A stretch of DNA of 64,000 bases, taken from positions 1-64,000 of the forward strand of contig CALMWF010000008.1 of the NCBI GenBank assembly GCA_937873445.1, read 5' to 3'. Position numbers and translations under genes: made by a program. Shown here in pieces: positions 3,802 to 62,250 of the stretch (the stretch's first letter is position 1; each line of letters starts with the position of its first letter). The DNA is from an uncultured Alphaproteobacteria bacterium. Lineage in GTDB: Bacteria; Pseudomonadota; Alphaproteobacteria; Rhizobiales; Aestuariivirgaceae. Below the pieces are notes generated by a model. It worked only from the letters and a program-made list of their open reading frames with translations. It had not been told where the DNA came from and made no database searches.

Positions 3802-4727
3802 CGCATCACCGCATCAAGCACCAGCGCCGCCACGATGATCAGGCCAAAGACGCGGTTGGATTTGAACAGGGCTAGGCAGAGCGCGCTGTCATCGCCGTTG
3901 AACCGTTTCACCTGCCAGGCGGCATGCAGTGCCGCCAGCCCCACGCCAGACTGGGCCACCACCCCGCCACCGGCCTGCCAGATGGCGGCAGCAATGCACA
4001 AGAGCGCCGCCGCGAAGAAAATGACAAGCCAGCGCCGGGTGGCCGCGCCAAACATCAGGGCCGTCGACTTGACGCCGATCAGAATGTCGTCCTCCTTGTC
4101 CTGATGGGCGTAGATGGTGTCATAGGCCAGGGTCCAGAAAATCCCGCCGGCATAGAGCAGCACCGGTGCCGGTGACAGCGATCCATGCACGGCCGCCCAG
4201 CCCACCAGCGCCCCCCAGTTGAAGGCCAGGCCCAGCACCAGTTGCGGCCAGTGGGTCACCCGCTTCATGAAGGGATAGATGGCAACGATGATGAGCGACG
4301 CCGTGGCCAGCACCACCGTATAGCGGTTGAACTGCACCAGGATGAGCAGCCCCGCCAGCAGTTGCGCCACCACGAAAAGCCGCGCCTGGTTGCGGCTTAC
4401 CTGGCCCGAGGGCAGGGGCCGCGACCGGGTGCGCGCCACCTGGGCATCGAAGCGGTAATCGGCAAGATCATTATGGGTGCAGCCCGCCCCGCGCATGATG
4501 ACGGCCCCGATGAAGAACAGAAACCCATACCAGAGATTGGGCAGGCCGCCGCCCTGCGCCATCTGGCCCAGCGCCAGCCCCCACCAGCACGGCAGCAGCA
4601 GCAGCCACCAGCCGATGGGCCGGTCAAGCCGCATCAGCCGGGCATAGGGCACGACCCCGCCCGGCAGGTAGCGGTCCACCCAGTTTTCCGGCGCGGCATC
4701 GGCCACGCGATGGCTGGTCTCGGTCAT
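3798..4727 (-). CDS. ubiA: 4-hydroxybenzoate octaprenyltransferase
   Basis: Membrane prenyltransferase of ubiquinone synthesis that joins the polyprenyl chain to 4-hydroxybenzoate. Both Asp-rich motifs are visible: NDLADYRFD at residues 86-94 and D-TIYAHQDKEDD at about 203-214, within a protein of about eight hydrophobic segments. The ATG at 4727 gives 309 aa; an upstream in-frame extension to 4832 would overlap the divergent rsmE and looks non-coding. It leads the minus-strand set with pmbA, cysQ-like and DUF4170. The ispB gene at 55-56 kb could make its side-chain substrate. Confidence 0.93.
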   Translation of the reverse strand: MTETSHRVADAAPENWVDRYLPGGVVPYARLMRLDRPIGWWLLLLPCWWGLALGQMAQGGGLPNLWYGFLFFIGAVIMRGAGCTHNDLADYRFDAQVARTRSRPLPSGQVSRNQARLFVVAQLLAGLLILVQFNRYTVVLATASLIIVAIYPFMKRVTHWPQLVLGLAFNWGALVGWAAVHGSLSPAPVLLYAGGIFWTLAYDTIYAHQDKEDDILIGVKSTALMFGAATRRWLVIFFAAALLCIAAAIWQAGGGVVAQSGVGLAALHAAWQVKRFNGDDSALCLALFKSNRVFGLIIVAALVLDAVMR

Positions 4728-4744
4728 GGCCCGCGTGTTACAGC

Positions 4745-5491
4745 ATGGCCATGACAAAGACCACTCCCCGCCTCCATGTGAACGCCGCCCTGGCTGCCGG
4801 GGCTGATGTGGCGCTGGCGCCGGAACAGGCACACTATCTTGCCAATGTGCTGCGCCTTGCCGCCGGGGCGGCGGTTCTGGCCTTCAACGGCAGCGACGGT
4901 GAATGGGAGGCCGTGCTGGCCCCGGCCGGGAAAAGAAAAGCGTCCCTTGCCATAGTGCGCCAGAGCCTGCCGCCCGCTCCGCCGCCCGACATTGATTATC
5001 TCTTTGCCCCCATCAAGCACGCCCGACTTGATTACATGGTGCAGAAGGCAACCGAACTGGGGGCGCGCCGCCTGCGCCCGGTCATCACCCGGCGCACCAT
5101 TGCCGAGCGCGTCAATCTGGAGCGCATGATGGCCAATGCGGTGGAGGCCGCCGAACAGTGCAATCTCGTCTTTGTGCCGGAGGTGCTGGCGCCGGTGAAA
5201 CTGGACCATCTGCTGGCGGACTGGGATCACCAGCGCCGCCTCATCTTCTGCGATGAACAGGCAGCGGGCAAAAATCCCCTCACCACCCTCAGCACCATCA
5301 CGCTGCCCGCCGCCCTGCTGGTGGGGCCGGAGGGCGGCTTTGCCCCGGAGGAACGCCAGCTTCTCCTCGCCCAGTCTTTCGTCACGCCCATTTCGCTTGG
5401 CCCGCGCATTCTCCGCGCCGATACGGCGGCCAGTGCCGCGCTCGCCCTTCTGCAGGCGGTGGTGGGCGACTGGAGCGGTGAAAAATTGTAA
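4745..5491 (+). CDS. rsmE: 16S rRNA (uracil1498-N3)-methyltransferase
   Basis: SPOUT-class methyltransferase that modifies U1498 of 16S rRNA. The knot region is clear: LLVGPEGGF at about residues 193-201 and LGPRILRADTA at about 219-229. The N-terminal PUA-like part contains the HYLANVLRL motif. Length 248 aa fits the family. An alternative start at 4751 (third codon) would shorten it by two residues; no strong Shine-Dalgarno separates them. Only 17 bp separate it from the divergent ubiA start, so the two promoters must overlap. gshA follows after 81 bp. Confidence 0.92.
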   Translation: MAMTKTTPRLHVNAALAAGADVALAPEQAHYLANVLRLAAGAAVLAFNGSDGEWEAVLAPAGKRKASLAIVRQSLPPAPPPDIDYLFAPIKHARLDYMVQKATELGARRLRPVITRRTIAERVNLERMMANAVEAAEQCNLVFVPEVLAPVKLDHLLADWDHQRRLIFCDEQAAGKNPLTTLSTITLPAALLVGPEGGFAPEERQLLLAQSFVTPISLGPRILRADTAASAALALLQAVVGDWSGEKL

Positions 5492-28344: not shown

Positions 28345-29475
28345 ATGATGAACAGCCAAGCCGCAAAACGCACTCCCCTCTATGATGAGCATGTGGCGCT
28401 CGGCGCCCGCATGGTGCCCTTCGCGGGCTATGACATGCCGGTGCAATATCCCGCCGGCATCATGGCCGAGCACAACTGGACCCGTGACAATGCCGGCCTG
28501 TTCGATGTGTCCCACATGGGCCAGTGCTTTGTCACCGGCGCTGACTTCGCCACCGTGGCCACCGCCCTGGAGCGGATTGTGCCCGCCGATGTGAAGGGGC
28601 TGGTGCCCGGCCAGCAGCGCTATTCGCAGCTTCTGGCCGATGACGGCGGCATTCTTGATGACCTGATGATCACCCACGCCCTCAAGACCGGTGCCGAAGG
28701 CCCCGTCTATGTGGTGGTGAACGCCGCCCGCAAGGATCATGACTTTGGCCACATCACCGCCCTTCTGCCCCAGGGGCTGAAGCTCATCCGGCGCGATGAT
28801 CTGGCGCTGGTGGCCCTGCAGGGGCCGAAGGCGGAAGCGGTGATGGCAAAGCTTGCCCCCGAACTGGCAACGCTGCCCTTCATGCGCTCGGCCCATGTGA
28901 CGGTTTCCGGCATGCCCCTGCAGGTGTCGCGCTCGGGCTACACCGGCGAGGACGGCTATGAAATTTCGGTGCGCAACGAAGACGCCGTGAAACTGTGGCG
29001 GCTGTTGCTCGCCGATGAGCGGGTGAAGCCGGTGGGGCTGGGGGCGCGCGACTCGCTCCGCCTCGAAGGCGGCCTCTGCCTCTACGGCCATGACATTGAC
29101 GAGACCACCAGCCCGGTGGAGGCCGGCCTCATGTGGTCCATCGCCAGGCACCGCCGCGCCGAAGCCAATTATCCGGGCGCTGGCCGCGTCAGCCGTGAAC
29201 TGGCCGAGGGTGTGTCGCGCAAGCGCGTGGGTCTGAAACCCGCTGGCCGCGCGCCCGCCCGCGACGGCACCGACATCACCAATGCCGCAGGCGAAAAGAT
29301 CGGCACCATCACCTCCGGCGGCTTCGGCCCCACCGTGGGCGGCCCCGTGGCCATGGGCTATGTGGCCAGTGCCTTTGCCGCCCCCGGCACCCCCGTCAAC
29401 CTCATGGTGCGCGGGCAGGCCATGCCCGCCACCGTGGTGGCTCTTCCCTTTGTTCCCAACCGTTTCAAGCGCTAG
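28345..29475 (+). CDS. gcvT: Glycine cleavage system aminomethyltransferase (T protein)
   Basis: 376 aa. Releases ammonia from aminomethyl-lipoyl-H protein and passes the carbon to tetrahydrofolate. Shows the FDVSHMGQ and YTGEDGYEISV blocks and the C-terminal GTITSGGFGPTVGGPVAMGY element. Two adjacent ATGs (28345, 28348) are possible starts. Placement right after the glycine riboswitch and before gcvH and gcvP confirms the role. Confidence 0.96.
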   Translation: MMNSQAAKRTPLYDEHVALGARMVPFAGYDMPVQYPAGIMAEHNWTRDNAGLFDVSHMGQCFVTGADFATVATALERIVPADVKGLVPGQQRYSQLLADDGGILDDLMITHALKTGAEGPVYVVVNAARKDHDFGHITALLPQGLKLIRRDDLALVALQGPKAEAVMAKLAPELATLPFMRSAHVTVSGMPLQVSRSGYTGEDGYEISVRNEDAVKLWRLLLADERVKPVGLGARDSLRLEGGLCLYGHDIDETTSPVEAGLMWSIARHRRAEANYPGAGRVSRELAEGVSRKRVGLKPAGRAPARDGTDITNAAGEKIGTITSGGFGPTVGGPVAMGYVASAFAAPGTPVNLMVRGQAMPATVVALPFVPNRFKR

Positions 29476-29892: not shown

Positions 29893-32784
29893 ATGGCCCC
29901 GCGCCAGACCCTTGCTGATTTCGAACCCGGACAGGACTTCATCCCGCGCCACATCGGCCCCCATGATGCCGACATCAAGGTGATGCTGCGCGAGGTGGGC
30001 GCAAGTTCGCTGGAGGACTTCATTGCCAAGGTGGTGCCCAAAGCCATCCGGGCGAAGAAGCCGCTCGGCATTGCGCCCGGCCTGTCGGAGCGTGATGCGC
30101 TGACCCGGCTGCGCACCATGGCGGAGAAGAACCAGGTCTTCGTCAACATGATCGGCCAAGGCTATTACGGCACCATCACCCCCAAGGTGATCCTGCGCAA
30201 TGTCACCGAAAACCCCGGCTGGTACACCGCCTATACACCCTATCAGGCCGAGGTCAGCCAGGGCCGTCTGGAGGCCCTGCTCAACTATCAGCAGATGGTC
30301 ATTGACCTGACGGGGCTGGACATCGCCAATGCCTCGCTGCTCGATGAGGGCACCGCCGCCGCCGAGGCCATGGCCATGGCCAAGCGCGTGGCCAAGGCAG
30401 ACGCCATCACCTTCTTCGTCGATGCCGACACCCACCCCCAGACCCTCGGCGTCATCAGGACGCGCGCCGAAGCCTTCGGTTACACGGTGGTGGTGGGCGA
30501 TCCCGCCACCGAACTGAAGCCCGATCAGGTCTTTGCCGCACTTCTGTCCTATCCCGGCTCCTCCGGCATGCTGCGTGATTATCGTGCCGTCATTGCCCGG
30601 CTGCATGCGGCAGGTGCCCTTGCCATCATGGCCACCGACCTGCTGGCGCTCACCCTGCTCACCCCGCCGGGTGAACTGGGGGCCGATATTGCCGTGGGCT
30701 CAAGCCAGCGCTTCGGCGTGCCTATGGGCTATGGCGGACCATCAGCGGCCTTCTTCGCCACCAGGGATGACTACAAGCGCGCCATGCCGGGCCGTCTCAT
30801 CGGCGTGTCGGTGGATTCGCGCGGGCGCCCGGCGCTGCGCATGGCCATGCAGACCCGCGAACAGCACATCCGCCGCGAAAAGGCGACATCCAACATCTGC
30901 ACCGCCCAGGTGCTGCTTGCCGTCATGGCCGCCATGTATGCGGTCTATCACGGGCCGGACGGGGTGAAGAAAATCGCCGCCCGCGCCCATCACATGGCCA
31001 AGCTCTTCGCCGCCGGTGTGGCGGGCATGGGCTACCTGCTGGCCACCCCCCACTTCTTCGACACGGTAACGGTCATTGCCAAGGGCAAGGCCAGGGCGCT
31101 GGTGGCCGCCGCCGCCAAAAAACGCATCAACATTCGCTATGTCGATGCCGATACGGTGGGCGTGTCCTTTGACGAAAGCCAGCGCCCCGCCGAACTCGAG
31201 GCGGTGCTGGCCGCCTTTGCGCCGGCGCGCAAGAAGGCCCCCGCCCTTGCCGATCTGGAGAAGAAGGTCAGCAATGTCATCCCCAAAACGCTGGCCCGCA
31301 CCTCGTCCTTCCTCACCCACGCGGTGTTCAACAGCCACCGCTCCGAAACCCAGATGCTGCGCTACCTGCGCCACCTGCAGGTGAAGGATGTGGCCCTCGA
31401 TCAGGCCATGATCCCGCTCGGCTCCTGTACCATGAAGCTCAATGCCACCACCGAGATGATCCCGGTGACCTGGCGCAATTTCTCCCAGCTTCATCCCTTC
31501 GCGCCGCTCAACCAGGCCAAGGGCTATGCCGAGTTGTTCGCCGAGACCGAGGCCATGCTCTGCGCCATCACCGGCTTTGATGCCGTGTCGCTGCAGCCCA
31601 ATGCCGGCTCGCAGGGTGAATATGCCGGTCTCTTGGCCATTCGCGCCTATCACCGGGCGCGCGGGCAGGGCCAGCGTGATGTCTGCCTCATTCCCATCTC
31701 GGCCCATGGCACCAACCCCGCCTCCGCCGTCATGGCGGGCATGAAGGTGGTGGTGGTGGCCTGTGATGACCACGGCAATGTCGAGGTGAAGGATCTGGAG
31801 GCCAAGGCGAGGGAGCACGCCAGGGACCTCGCCGCCCTGATGATCACCTATCCCTCCACCCATGGCGTGTTTGAGGAAGCCATCAAGGACATCTGCCGGA
31901 TCGTCCACAAGCATGGCGGCCAGGTCTATCTTGACGGCGCCAACCTCAACGCCCAGGTGGGCCTTGTCCGCCCGGCCGAACTGGGGGCGGATGTCTGCCA
32001 CATGAACCTGCACAAGACCTTTGCCATTCCCCATGGCGGCGGTGGCCCCGGCGTTGGTCCCATCGGTGTGAAGGCCCATCTGGCGCCCTTCCTGCCCGGC
32101 CATGCCGTGGTGCCCTCGGTCAATCCCAAGGCCAGGAAGAAGGGTGAGGGTGCGGTGTCATCATCGCCCTGGGGGTCGGCTTCCGTTGTCCCCATCTCCT
32201 GGGCCTATATGACCATGATGGGCGGCGCGGGCCTGACGCGGGCCACCAAACTGGCCATCCTCAACGCCAACTACATCGCCAGACGCTTGAACCCGCATTA
32301 TCCCGTGCTCTACACGGGCCCCGGCGGCTTTGTGGCCCATGAATGCATCATCGACCTGCGCTGGCTGAAGGAACGCACCGGCCTGTCGGTGGAGGATGTG
32401 GCCAAGCGTCTGGTGGACTATGGCTTCCACGCCCCCACCATGTCCTTCCCGGTGCCCGACACGCTGATGATCGAGCCCACTGAGTCCGAGGACAAGCGCG
32501 AGCTGGACCGCTTCTGTGACGCCATGATCGAAATCCGCAAGGAGATCGACGCGGTGGAGAAGGGCGAGGCCTCGCGCACCGACAATGTGCTGAAGAACGC
32601 CCCCCACACCCACGACCAGCTGCTGGGCGACTGGCCCCATCCCTATTCCAGGGAGCAGGCCTTCTTCCCGCTCAAGGGCTATCCGAACCACAAGTTCTGG
32701 CCCACCGTGGGCAGGGTGGACAATGTCTTCGGCGACCGCAATCTGGTCTGCACCTGCCCGGCCACGTCCAACTATATGGACTGA
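29893..32784 (+). CDS. gcvP: Glycine dehydrogenase (decarboxylating), P protein
   Basis: 963-residue single-chain P protein with both halves fused, as in proteobacteria and mitochondria. PLP-binding Lys708 lies in [16 protein letters not shown], and the N-terminal FIPRHIGP motif is present. It decarboxylates glycine and loads the remaining carbon onto GcvH. It has a GAGGAG ribosome site and is the last gene of the riboswitch operon. An intrinsic terminator follows. Confidence 0.96.
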
Positions 32785-58282: not shown

Positions 58283-58366
58283 CCGGGGGCGGCCCAAGGC
58301 CCTGAAACCATGGCGCCAAATTGACGATTCCACCGGCCGGGATTTTGCTTTACGGTGCGCCGCACC

Positions 58367-59278
58367 ATGACGCTCCATCCCACCAAATCCTTTCAGGACC
58401 TGATCCTTACGCTCCATAATTACTGGGGCGAAAAGGGCTGTGTCATTCTCCAGCCCTATGACATGGAAGTGGGCGCCGGCACCTTCCATCCCGCCACCAC
58501 CCTGCGCTCGGTGGGGCCGCGGCCCTGGGCTGCCGCCTATGTGCAGCCCTCGCGCCGGCCCAAGGACGGGCGCTATGGCGAAAATCCCAACCGCCTCCAG
58601 CACTATTACCAGTATCAGGTGATCATCAAGCCGTCGCCGCCCGACCTGCAGACGCTCTATCTCGGCTCGCTCGCGGCAATCGGCATTGACCACACGCTGC
58701 ACGACATCCGCTTCGTCGAGGACGATTGGGAAAGCCCCACGCTGGGCGCCTGGGGCCTTGGCTGGGAAGTGTGGTGCGACGGCATGGAAGTGTCGCAGTT
58801 CACCTATTTCCAGCAGGTCGGCGGGCTTGATTGCAATCCCGTGTCGGGCGAACTCACCTATGGGCTGGAACGTCTGGCCATGTATGTGCAGGGCGTCGAC
58901 AATGTCTATGACCTGAACTTCAACGGCCGGCCGGAGGGCGAAGGCCGCATCAGCTATGGCGATGTCTTCCTGCAGGCCGAGCAGGAATATTCGCGCTTCA
59001 ACTTTGAACATGCCGACACCGAAATCCTGTTCCGCCACTTCAAGGATGCCGAGCAGGAATGCGCCGCCCTGCTCAAGGCCGGTGAAACCGAGGGCCGTCA
59101 CATGCTGGCGCTGCCCGCCTATGACCAGTGCATCAAGGCGTCCCACGCCTTCAACCTGCTGGATGCGCGCGGCGTCATCTCGGTGACCGAGCGCCAGGCC
59201 TATATCCTGCGCGTGCGTGAACTGGCCAAGGGCTGCTGTGTCGCCTGGAGCAGGACGGCAGGCGGGGGAGCACAGTGA
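58367..59278 (+). CDS. glyQ: Glycyl-tRNA synthetase alpha subunit
   Basis: 303 aa class II synthetase alpha chain of the bacterial heterotetramer. [12 protein letters not shown] and the [13 protein letters not shown] block are characteristic, with [15 protein letters not shown] 58367 is chosen over a GTG four codons upstream. Its stop TGA at 59276-59278 is followed at once by a duplicate of the glyS start, the left copy of the cassette repeat. Confidence 0.97.
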
Positions 59279-59284
59279 TGGCTG
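59277..59284. repeat. Left 8-bp direct repeat of the cassette (GATGGCTG)
   Basis: Overlaps the glyQ stop. The ATG inside it is the abandoned copy of the glyS start, which runs into a 13-codon open frame and then a TAA. Confidence 0.75.
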
Positions 59285-59320
59285 TTTTTTTATTTTTAAT
59301 CAATATATTACCCCATTAAC

Positions 59321-59349
59321 TTGATTTTCATGCCTTTAAACGCTATATA
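59321..59349 (+). promoter_or_regulatory. Sigma70-like promoter of the small RNA
   Basis: TTGATT (59321-59326), exactly 17 nt spacer, TATATA (59344-59349). Transcription should start near 59356, which is the 5' base of the outer RNA stem. Confidence 0.6.
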
Positions 59350-59355
59350 CGTATC

Positions 59356-59420
59356 AACAGTCGAGAGGGCCGCCTTATGCGGTTCGTTAGGCCTCGCGCC
59401 TACTCGGCTGTCTTTCTTTT
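59356..59420 (+). ncRNA. Structured small RNA (three-way junction) preceding the DUF3800 gene
   Basis: A compact fold read directly from the sequence. Outer stem of 9 pairs: 59357-59365 (ACAGTCGAG) with 59403-59411 (CTCGGCTGT), one G-U. Stem 2: 59367-59373 (GGGCCGC) with 59379-59385 (GCGGTTC), loop CTTAT. Stem 3: 59389-59392 (AGGC) with 59398-59401 (GCCT), loop CTCGC. Only 1, 3 and 1 unpaired nt connect the helices. CTTTCTTTTTT follows, as in an intrinsic terminator. Comparative surveys have described several unrelated DUF3800-associated RNA motifs; I cannot tell which, if any, this matches. Confidence 0.75.
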
Positions 59421-59435
59421 TTGGTGGAGGATAGT

Positions 59436-60182
59436 GTGTTCATCCTCTATCTGGACGACGCCGGTTCCGTCGGAAATTCCGCAGATAAACATGTTGTCCT
59501 CGCGGGCGTAGCCCTGTTTGAGAGGCAGGTCCATTTTCTGGATCTAAAACTCAACGAGATTGCGGAGAAGATTTGCCCAGATGATCCACTGGGGTTAGAA
59601 TTTCACGCCAACCATATATTAAACGGGAAGAAGCATTGGCGACGGTTTTCAGACAAGCCCACGAGGCGCCGACATCTAGCAAATGGTCTGTCAGTGATAG
59701 ATAAGTTACAAGGTCATCGTGCACTTTTCGGAGTGGTGGTTGAGAAGGCAGCGGTATCTCCACAAGACGCTATCGAGTATGCGTTTGAACAGATTTGCTC
59801 CAGGTTCGATCAATTTCTCGAGCGAAGAAACCGGTCTTTGAAAAAGGGCGATGCTCGCGAAAAGCAAAGAGGGTTATTGATTTTCGATAAGTCGACTCGG
59901 GAAACTAGGCTCCAGAGTTTAACGAGAGAATTCCGTCGAAATGGGCATACTTGGGGAAAATTGAGAAATTTTGTTGATGTTCCGTTTTTTGTAGACAGCG
60001 AGGCGACCCGAGCAATTCAATATGCTGACATGGTCGCTTATGCGCTATGGCGGAAGTATGAAAAAACTGATGATGCTTTCTTCAAGATCATTGAAACAGC
60101 TTTTGATGCGTGTGGAGGAGTTCGGCATGGCTTGCACATAAAGCAGTGTGGCAAGACTATTCAGGAGCAATCAGATGGCTGA
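59436..60182 (+). CDS. DUF3800 domain-containing protein
   Basis: 248 aa. GTG 59436 is chosen because GGAGG lies 5 nt upstream; TTG 59421 and GTG 59424 overlap the RNA terminator or ribosome site. DUF3800 proteins are predicted to adopt an RNase H-like fold. Likely acidic residues are Asp7/Asp8 (YLDDAG), Glu55 (LEFHANH), Asp151 (LLIFDKS) and Asp198 ([10 protein letters not shown]). Its last codons GAT GGC TGA are the right cassette repeat, overlapping glyS by 8 bp. Codon use is AT-rich, foreign to the neighbours. Function unknown; nuclease activity is an inference. Confidence 0.82.
60163..60167 (+). promoter_or_regulatory. Shine-Dalgarno for glyS supplied by the cassette
   Basis: AGGAG with 7-nt spacing before ATG 60175, inside the DUF3800 coding sequence. 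The insertion therefore brings its own ribosome site for glyS, in place of coupling to glyQ. Confidence 0.7.
60174..60181. repeat. Right 8-bp direct repeat of the cassette (GATGGCTG)
   Basis: Contains the functional glyS ATG at 60175 and encodes the last residues of the DUF3800 protein in another frame. Confidence 0.75.
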
Positions 60183-62250
60183 ACTTCTGCTCGAACTGTT
60201 CTCGGAAGAAATTCCGGCCCGCATGCAGCAAAAGGCGGCCGAGGATCTGAAGGCCCTCATCACCAATGGACTGGTGGAGGCGGGGCTGACCTATGAAGGG
60301 GCGCAGGCCCATGCCACGCCGCGCCGTCTGGTGCTGTCGGTGGAGGGGCTGAACGACAAGGCCGCCGATGTGCGCGAGGAGCGCAAGGGCCCGCGCGTCG
60401 ACGCGCCCCAGCCCGCCATTGACGGCTTTCTGAAATCCACCGGCCTCTCGCTGGACCAGCTCACCGTGCAGGATGACAAGAAGGGCAAGTTCTACATTGC
60501 CGTCATCAACCGGCCGGGCCGCGCCGCACCGGAGATCATCGCCGCCCTGGTGCCCGAGGTGATCCGCAAATTCCCCTGGCCCAAATCCATGCGCTGGGGG
60601 GCGGGCAGCCTGCGCTGGGTGCGTCCGCTCCACTCCATTCTCTGCACCTTTGATGGTGAGGTCGTGGCCTTTGCTGTGGACGGCATTGCGAGCGGCAACA
60701 CCACTCGCGGCCACCGTTTTCTCAGCCCCGGCACCATCACCGCCCGCCGCTTTGCCGACTATGCCCAGAAACTCTTTGACGCGAGGGTGGTGGTGGACGC
60801 CACCGCCCGCGCCGAAACCATCCGCACCGAGGCCAGAAACCTCGCCTTCGCCCAGGGGCTGGAACTGGTCGAGGATGAATCCCTGCTGAAGGAAACCGCC
60901 GGTCTGGTGGAATGGCCCACGGTGCTCATGGGCGTCTTTGACGAGGCCTTCCTCGGTGTGCCGCCGGAGGTCATCATCACCTCCATCAAGAACCATCAGA
61001 AGTGCTTTGCCCTGCGCGACGGCAAGACCGGCAGGCTGGCCAACCGCTATCTCCTCGTCTCCAACATGCTGGCCGCCGACGGCGGCAAGACCATCGTGGC
61101 CGGCAACAACAAGGTGATTGCGGCGCGGCTTTCGGACGCCAAGTTCTTCTGGGATCAGGACCGCAAGACGAAACTGGAAGACCTGCTGCCCAAACTGGAC
61201 ACGGTCACCTTCCATGCCAGTCTGGGGTCGCAGGGTGAGCGGGTGGCACGCCTGCAACAATGGGCCAAGCTTCTTGCCCCGTCGGTGAAGGCTGATGAAA
61301 AGGCGGCGGTGCTTGCCGCGCGCCTCGCCAAGGCCGACCTCAAGACCGGTGTGGTGGAGGAATTCCCCGAGCTGCAGGGCCTGATGGGCAAATACTATGC
61401 CGCCGCCGAAGGCTATGCGCCGGATGTGGCCCAGGCGCTGCAGGACCATTACAAGCCGCAGGGGCCGTCCGACCGGGTGCCGTCCGAGCCGGTGGCCATC
61501 GCCGCCGCCCTGGCTGAAAAGTTCGACACGCTGGTGGGCTTCTGGACCATTGATGAAAAGCCCACCGGCTCCAAGGATCCCTATGCGTTGCGCCGGGCCG
61601 CCCTCGGCGTCATCCGCATTCTGATTGAGAACAATCTGCGCCTGCCGCTGCTCGCCACCTTCAATGACGGCGCGGCATTCTATGGCGCCCAGCGCGGCAA
61701 GGAGTTCATCAAGGATTTCTCCGCCGCCGATCTCCTGTCCTTCTTCGCCGACCGCCTGAAGGTCTATCTGCGCGAGCAGGGGGCGAGACACGATCTCATC
61801 GACGCCGTGTTTGCCCTCGGCAATCAGGATGATCTGCTGATGGTGGTGAAGCGGGTGGAGGCGCTGTCCAGCTTCCTCGCCAGCGATGACGGCAGGAACC
61901 TGCTGGCCGGGGTGAAGCGCGCCGCCAACATTCTCCGCATCGAGGAAAAGAAGGACGGCAAAAGCTATGCCGGCCTGCCGCAGCAGAACCTGCTCATCCA
62001 GGGCGAGGAGAAGACCCTGTTCACCGCCATCAATGCCGCCGCCGCCCAGACCCACAAGGCCATTGGCGCGGAAGACTTCGAGGCGGCCATGAAGGCGCTG
62101 GCCAAGCTCCGTCCGGCGGTTGATGCCTTCTTCGAGCAGGTGACGGTCAATGCCGATGACCCGTCCTTCCGCGAAAACCGGCTGAAACTGCTGAACCGCA
62201 TCCGCGAGGCCACCGCCGAAGTGGCCGACTTCTCCAAGATCGAGGGCTGA
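60175..62250 (+). CDS. glyS: Glycyl-tRNA synthetase beta subunit
   Basis: 691 aa beta chain of the heterotetrameric synthetase, needed for tRNA recognition. The N-terminal [15 protein letters not shown] and the RSLRWVRP-like segment ([14 protein letters not shown]) are typical, and the C-terminal part carries an anticodon-binding region. ATG 60175 lies in the right cassette repeat. In most genomes glyS follows glyQ directly; here 896 bp separate the stop and start. Confidence 0.96.

Follow-up and report, generated by a model that had tools for sequence, protein, structure and literature searches.

A DUF3800-VI RNA and its DUF3800 gene, probably inserted between glyQ and glyS, as a candidate antitoxin-like module

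What does a compact RNA do directly ahead of a DUF3800 gene, and how did the two come to lie between glyQ and glyS? The locus was found in the window, by which we mean the whole 64,000-nucleotide stretch analyzed (contig CALMWF010000008.1 of an uncultured alphaproteobacterium of the family Aestuariivirgaceae). DUF3800 genes have lent their name to several distinct RNA families since 2017, none with an assigned function to our knowledge. This holds for the DUF3800-VI RNA, reportedly first described by Weinberg and colleagues in 2017, for which we likewise know of no function. The RNA and its gene have the following features in the window.

59321-59349, + strand: promoter-like sequence (-35 TTGATT at 59321-59326, 17-nt spacer, -10 TATATA at 59344-59349)
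59356-59411, + strand: DUF3800-VI RNA (Rfam RF02915; fold; covariation; 62.7 bits with our own covariance model)
59357-59365/59403-59411, 59367-59373/59379-59385 and 59388-59392/59398-59402, + strand: stems P1, P2 and P3 of the DUF3800-VI RNA
59412-59422, + strand: U-tract CTTTCTTTTTT, intrinsic-terminator-like, immediately 3' of P1 (from the sequence; C/A+TTTT kept in relatives)
59426-59430, + strand: GGAGG, likely ribosome-binding site of the DUF3800 gene (from the sequence)
59436-60182, + strand: DUF3800 gene, 248 aa, predicted RNase HII-like fold (PF12686, E = 5.7e-17; stop codon within glyS)

Based on a covariance search of the window, RF02915 (DUF3800-VI) matches positions 59358-59410 with 62 bits against a cut-off of 35; the match spans all 52 model positions, and VI is the only one of the Rfam DUF3800 families to match there. 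A preliminary description of this DNA had placed a three-way-junction RNA at 59356-59420 and had pointed to the RNA motifs known near DUF3800 genes. The structure is present at that place, as confirmed by fold, Rfam match and covariation, and the Rfam score bears out the link to these motifs. The proposed stems of nine, seven and four pairs around five unpaired bases were correct for the first two; the third has five pairs, the U-A pair closing P3 having been omitted, and three junction bases (A59366, G59386 and U59387) are unpaired. The region 59356-59420 has a folding energy of -27.8 kcal/mol (z = -3.5, 200 shuffles), and 1 of the 200 shuffles was equally stable. Some 42 of approximately 55 RNA bases are paired, the unpaired runs within the RNA are short (longest 10 nt, median 6), and few unpaired bases are conserved, among them an A between P1 and P2 (99%) and a G between P2 and P3 (93%). 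A single GC-rich stretch of intergenic DNA is able to fold well by chance, but this explanation is already refuted by the Rfam score, the covariation and the shuffle test, and we give it virtually no weight.

Our own covariance model, built from 14 sequences, was run on the window and the best 80 of 139 DUF3800 relatives, all taken from named genomes, and gave 82 matches in 79 of these 81 sources, each located 5' of a DUF3800 gene. The model-fitted alignment has 81 distinct rows; 98.3% of its cells are paired, a share that falls to 35-47% when partners in the same alignment are slid. Since this alignment had been fitted to the structure, the covariation test was repeated independently with the window and 39 sequences absent from model building, aligned by MAFFT without structural information; from this alignment RNAalifold recovers the same three stems. 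Compensatory base changes, set beforehand as the test of the fold, were found as double changes in 16 of 21 pairs in the 81-row alignment and in 15 of 21 in the MAFFT alignment. The window RNA is thus a real, well-conserved new member of the known RNA family DUF3800-VI; its sequence, its structure and its location ahead of a DUF3800 gene all agree with RF02915, with no difference in the RNA itself, and it is assigned to this family and not to type III toxin-antitoxin.

The DUF3800-VI RNA family is rare in the family, class and phylum searched. Of the 69 genomes searched in the taxonomic family, 3 contain RF02915, as do 7 of 385 genomes in the class, and our own model matches 5 of 398 genomes of the phylum, one of them probably by chance (the window's own genome is counted in each figure). 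The window RNA is the single RF02915 match in its own 2.58-Mb genome, and none of the 36 further genomes in the genus (37 including the window's) gave a match. Two model matches were set aside as chance: a weak one of 30 bits at L139, which by eye appears to lie inside coding sequence, and one of 15.9 bits at L134. At four DUF3800 loci of other genomes (L140, L142, L144 and L145) no Rfam DUF3800 RNA was found.

The preliminary description had also proposed a TTGATT-17-TATATA promoter and a terminator after the outer stem. Both sequences are present, but a strict scan of the window site does not report this promoter or any simple, separate terminator hairpin, and on window evidence alone each is weak. 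They become credible through the relatives, which have -35 and -10 elements at a fixed distance and a conserved T run after the outer stem. Across phyla, in a set of 79 upstream regions from which three second copies of tandem RNAs were excluded, sigma-70-like elements lie at a constant distance from the RNA, with a T-rich -35 (T in 84% at -34) and a -10 resembling TATAAT (A in 66% at -10); little is conserved between the -10 and the first RNA pair. Given a promoter-like pair at a fixed distance from the RNA, transcription should start at or near the first outer-stem base. After P1, T occupies positions +2, +3 and +4 in 92, 90 and 75% of the 79 loci, respectively, and the start codon follows 4-86 nt past P1 (median 20). 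An SD-like motif precedes the DUF3800 gene in 13 of the 79 loci, including the window. In four Rhizobiaceae loci (L042, L046, L048 and L050), the start codon is 4 nt past the outer stem, without a ribosome-binding site.

Terminators were sought by script at 91 loci (the 79 and 12 mobile-element loci). None of the 65 loci that are U-rich after P1 has a separate terminator hairpin; among the other 26, nine have one and in 17 none was detected by the script (Fisher p = 4e-6, a value that overstates independence because eight of the nine are mobile-element loci, two of them near-identical). A hairpin-plus-T layout is also recognizable by eye in L120, L121, L129, L100 and L143. The RNA should therefore end before the gene, either at the U-tract after P1 or, in some mobile-element copies, at a separate hairpin. 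Two alternative stop signals ahead of the DUF3800 gene suggest that termination at this point is under selection.

Within this subfamily, RNA and gene are almost always found together. According to the model, 78 of 80 related DUF3800 genes (best 80 of 139), in addition to that of the window, are immediately preceded by the RNA, a figure that applies to this DUF3800 subfamily since the relatives were chosen by similarity to RNA-bearing proteins. Of the two genes lacking a match, one (L091) is on a contig that begins 7 nt ahead of the gene, and the upstream region of the other (L100), cut at the proper borders, folds into the same junction; no intact subfamily gene without the RNA was seen in this sample, picked by similarity to RNA-linked genes. 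Distances between the RNAs track those between the proteins (Mantel r = 0.41, 0 of 2000 permutations, 75 loci). There is one RNA copy in the window, and two tandem copies precede the gene in L059, L092, L105, L127, L128, L129 and L143. The RNA also occurs beside a broken or missing gene, at seven loci in total: it is intact in L069, L070, L105 and L109, where the gene has one internal stop in an otherwise full-length frame (such in-frame stops may partly be assembly errors); two RNAs in L143 are followed by a DUF3800 gene broken after approximately 25 codons; and L039 and L137 have the RNA with no DUF3800 gene within the 3-kb locus. The orphan RNA of L137 has a long U-tract, and L143 is the other copy in the same genome (G491).

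Mobile carriers show the same association. The RNA is present in 9 of 10 loci on viral contigs, the tenth starting inside the gene, and relatives are also present in 49 plasmid records and 2 phages. Three of five plasmid or phage loci pass the Rfam cut-off, and the two small enterobacterial ones fall below it with a similar junction fold; plasmid locus L124 has an RF02915 match, yet its lowest-energy fold is not the junction. In E. coli, the enterobacterial variant was found at megablast sensitivity in 12 of 5426 genomes, at 14 places, all plasmid-borne, and in each of the 18 plasmid records covering 80% or more of the RNA region a DUF3800 gene is annotated there too. Between distant hosts only RNA and gene stay alike (e.g., L085/L096, L099/L103). 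PADLOC gave no match, and assignment to a defence system was rejected on this ground. Neighbouring ORFs were taken by a longest-ORF rule, some of them antisense, and 91 of 126 were sent to Pfam (the shorter ones mostly omitted by hand); among 94 Pfam families, the 25 listed are all of housekeeping types, with no recognised defence family.

A Pfam search of the downstream ORF gave DUF3800 (PF12686) as the only match, and its start is most likely the GTG at 59436. Based on an AlphaFold2 model (73 sequences, pLDDT 93.3, pTM 0.91), the protein is predicted to have an RNase H-superfamily fold resembling RNase HII: the best PDB matches of the model in Foldseek are RNase HII (E = 1.4e-4), and a second aligner (VIA) gives Z = 10.7 and an rmsd of 3.0 over 161 residues against RNase HII. 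D7, E55, D151 and D198 are invariant in the 73 DUF3800 sequences and, by analogy with the RNase H family, would constitute a metal site. A ToxN-like chain is absent from the Foldseek and VIA match lists, an absence that excludes nothing. The RNase H fold of DUF3800 was noted earlier (PMC10910872; PMC12669027, both in excerpt). In L077 the DUF3800 gene (3813-4778) has an in-frame insert of approximately 75 codons near residue 207 (a split match in one frame).

We tentatively regard RNA and DUF3800 gene as a two-part module like type III toxin-antitoxin or AbiF, a reading that we put slightly short of an even chance. RNA polymerase would start at the first base of the outer stem and produce a 55-65-nt three-way-junction RNA, transcription mostly halting at the U-tract behind that stem and occasional read-through yielding a little DUF3800 protein. 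Excess RNA would bind the protein and keep its RNase H-type active site in check; were the supply of RNA to drop, the freed nuclease would damage the cell, so that retention of the module would be favoured. The computed support consists of the RNA structure, the conserved promoter and termination signals and the near-constant pairing with this DUF3800 subfamily, and further of the predicted RNase HII-like fold, the invariant acidic residues, the RNA and gene as a unit shared between distant hosts and the insertion between glyQ and glyS; transcription, read-through, RNA-protein binding, nuclease activity, toxicity and neutralisation are inferred.

An antitoxin-like pair is considered most likely because the layout comes close to what defines type III loci and to AbiF/RCd22. 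Type III loci are recognized, according to an excerpt of PMC8860590, by a -35/-10 promoter, RNA repeats, a terminator and then an ORF, and the module shares with ToxIN the order of promoter, RNA, terminator and protein ORF. A promoter directly 5' of the RNA is indicated by positional conservation in the 79 regions; the outer stem with its U-tract would serve as the hairpin terminator, a separate hairpin being found by script in 9 of 91 loci; and in place of the tandem array of ToxIN the window has a single RNA unit, with two copies in the seven loci named above. The module differs further in its three-way junction and in its protein, which is predicted to be RNase HII-like and not a ToxN relative, with putative toxicity. 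In AbiF/RCd22, neutralisation of a toxic protein by a short, terminated and abundant RNA has been demonstrated (PMC12373285, in excerpt). The same excerpt gives the abiF RNA motif (RF03085) a promoter, short RNA, terminator and read-through into a nuclease gene, as here, but with a HEPN-type protein, another RNA and an antitoxin function proven by experiment. The single RNA copy in the window, the RNase H-type protein and the lack of defence neighbours among those seen are points against the antitoxin reading. In one Legionella strain, a DUF3800 gene of unspecified subfamily is called essential in the accessory genome (PMC7811196, in excerpt), which would suit a neutraliser better than a toxin.

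In the DUF3800 literature covered, i.e., passages and titles, we found no test of the DUF3800-VI RNA; neither a glyQ-linked lineage nor an antitoxin-like case was found in this search, which left out most subscription papers and the original description. The site after glyQ and the promoter and terminator anatomy of the DUF3800-VI RNA are observations of the present analysis. If the antitoxin pair is real, an RNase H-type nuclease would join the RNA-antitoxin systems, among whose toxins we so far know of no such fold, and the glyQ-linked lineage would represent a module of this kind settled beside or inside an essential gene pair. The anatomy of the DUF3800 RNA (promoter, stops, tandem copies, survivors of gene loss, and a plasmid-only variant in E. 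coli) makes its function directly testable.

The RNA could instead be a cis-regulatory leader, with DUF3800 binding the junction and enhancing termination or blocking translation, an autoregulation with no role elsewhere; we consider this unlikely, though it deserves real weight. Rfam classes RF02915 as Cis-reg, the RNA is directly upstream of the gene at the DUF3800 loci examined (with the start codon at the 4-86 nt given above), and an SD-like motif is found in just 13 of the 79 loci. A leader is argued against by the promoter-like signal at the RNA's first base, which leaves no extra leader, by the existence of tandem copies, by RNAs with no nearby gene (L039, L137) or beside broken genes, and by strong conservation of the RNA across phyla. 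A partner or antitoxin is favoured over a single-gene leader by the separate promoter, the conserved stop, the tandem copies and the persistence of RNAs beside broken genes. From the four roles first offered (partner, substrate, antitoxin or attenuator), comparison thus narrows the choice toward partner or antitoxin, with no single role settled. What stands of the preliminary interpretation as a whole is the covarying RNA, the promoter-like sequence, the likely stop and the DUF3800 family; the role has been narrowed.

Equally to be weighed is that the RNA serves as a cofactor or guide, indispensable to an active ribonucleoprotein nuclease that functions in defence or DNA cleavage, a reading that we rate as unlikely. 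The predicted RNase H-type fold with invariant D7, E55, D151 and D198 and the correlation between RNA and protein distances (r = 0.41) are compatible with it, as is the occurrence of DUF3800 proteins with some CRISPR types (excerpts of PMC10910872 and PMC12669027). With 42 of some 55 bases paired, and the longest inner unpaired run being 10 nt, the RNA has little space for a guide; a search for unpaired segments returned none above 10 nt inside the RNA, and a guide within the RNA was rejected, though one could lie elsewhere. The 3' flank is the gene at the DUF3800 loci examined, so that no variable guide is visible, and a cofactor needs no selection for termination ahead of the gene. The window protein resembles the DUF3800 proteins of class 2 CRISPR loci in its RNase H-fold DUF3800 domain (PMC10910872 and PMC12669027, as excerpted), but its gene sits between glyQ and glyS, and the window RNA is not a crRNA.

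How the RNA and its gene arrived at this site is suggested by the following features.

58355-59278, + strand: glyQ, glycyl-tRNA synthetase alpha chain (TIGR00388 and PF02091 above cut-off; ORF start codon approximate)
59267-59284, + strand: imperfect direct repeat of 18 nt, left copy (identical portion GATGGCTG at 59277-59284; probable duplicated insertion target)
59285-60173, + strand: AT-rich cassette of promoter, RNA and DUF3800 gene, 889 bp, GC 0.458 (GC compared with the window; RNA not found elsewhere in the genus)
60164-60181, + strand: right copy of the direct repeat, containing the glyS start codon (GATGGCTG at 60174-60181)
60175-62250, + strand: glyS, glycyl-tRNA synthetase beta chain (TIGR00211 and PF02092 above cut-off; 8-nt overlap with the DUF3800 stop)

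The GC content of the cassette (0.458) is below that of all 1263 same-size stretches of the window (mean 0.646, sd 0.032). In the sister genome G032, whose glyQ orthologue is 96% identical, the site is empty, and a single copy, TGATGGCTGAAC, runs across the glyQ-glyS junction; the window has TGATGGCTG, then the cassette, then CAGATGGCTGAAC. The repeat at the cassette borders, which is known from the window, comprises 8 nt exactly or 14 of 18 positions. The cassette thus reads as an insertion between glyQ and glyS with a probable target duplication; the outer GGAG of the right repeat may instead have been retained as the ribosome-binding site of glyS. This insertion of RNA and gene is a new observation, absent from the preliminary description.

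A glyQ search of the genus gave a match in 32 of 37 genomes. At 30 junctions, classed by a simple script, glyQ runs directly into glyS in 12, a CDGSH-type gene intervenes in 13, something else in 4, and the module in the window. The CDGSH-type gene (13 of 30, loci L004-L033) is scattered on the glyQ tree, with 8 changes. In G043 (L002), the CDGSH gene (PF09360) and a DUF3800 module are both present.

A position after glyQ is shared by 15 further loci among the best 80 of 139 relatives, with no gene or, in L041 and L053, one small gene intervening; most are from Rhizobiales and Rhodobacterales, and one is from a Robiginitomaculum. In 9 of the 15 (L041, L044, L045, L047, L049, L053, L054, L101 and L111) glyS lies within approximately 1 kb, in L040 at 3.9 kb, and at L042, L043, L046, L048 and L050 glyS was not seen; since glyS is distant or unseen in some relatives, the common site is 'after glyQ' and not always the glyQ-glyS junction. 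In a quick DUF3800 tree, one branch (SH-aLRT 89) separates the window and these 15 relatives from the rest. Comparison with the glyQ tree shows partial agreement (Mantel r = 0.53, 0 of 2000 permutations, two glyQ rows partial) and conflict at L053/L111 and window/L040, so that long residence with losses and horizontal re-entry of the module may both have happened. Four of these loci (L042, L046, L048 and L050) show DUF3800 tree distances of 0.13-0.32 against 0.01-0.04 for glyQ, i.e., fast evolution, and Rhodobacteraceae-like L044, L045, L047 and L049 have an extra ORF of approximately 450-500 nt between DUF3800 and glyS.

The position beside glyQ and glyS prompted the idea of a regulation related to glycine or tRNA. 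It was rejected as a general function because 65 of the 81 loci have no glyQ match and 63 of these 65 still have the same RNA by the model.

A combined reading, in which a minimal mobile module has one lineage specialised on the site after glyQ, target duplication sparing the start of glyS and an antitoxin with an RNase H-fold toxin securing retention, seems to us rather improbable. Still more doubtful, and given only slight weight, is a mobile or homing element as such, a module that moves and settles after glyQ with DUF3800 acting in its own integration. Placement of all 16 glyQ-linked cases on one side of the DUF3800 tree (SH-aLRT 89), the 12 of 30 empty genus junctions, the border repeat in the window (8 nt exact, 14 of 18 imperfect) and the tree conflicts at L053/L111 and window/L040 point to movement. 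Against this, the trees also broadly agree (r = 0.53), as under long residence; the other 65 loci have no recurring neighbour, mobile genes included, in the ORFs examined, and border repeats are known from the window only. Recombination through homology in the glyS flank could also move the cassette, yet the window glyS is G032-like up to its start.

Elsewhere in the window, a tandem glycine riboswitch (RF00504, 28093-28304, + strand, 62 and 37 bits) lies directly upstream of gcvT (28345-29475), which is followed by gcvP (29893-32784); the riboswitch is ordinary, but shares the window with glyQ and glyS.
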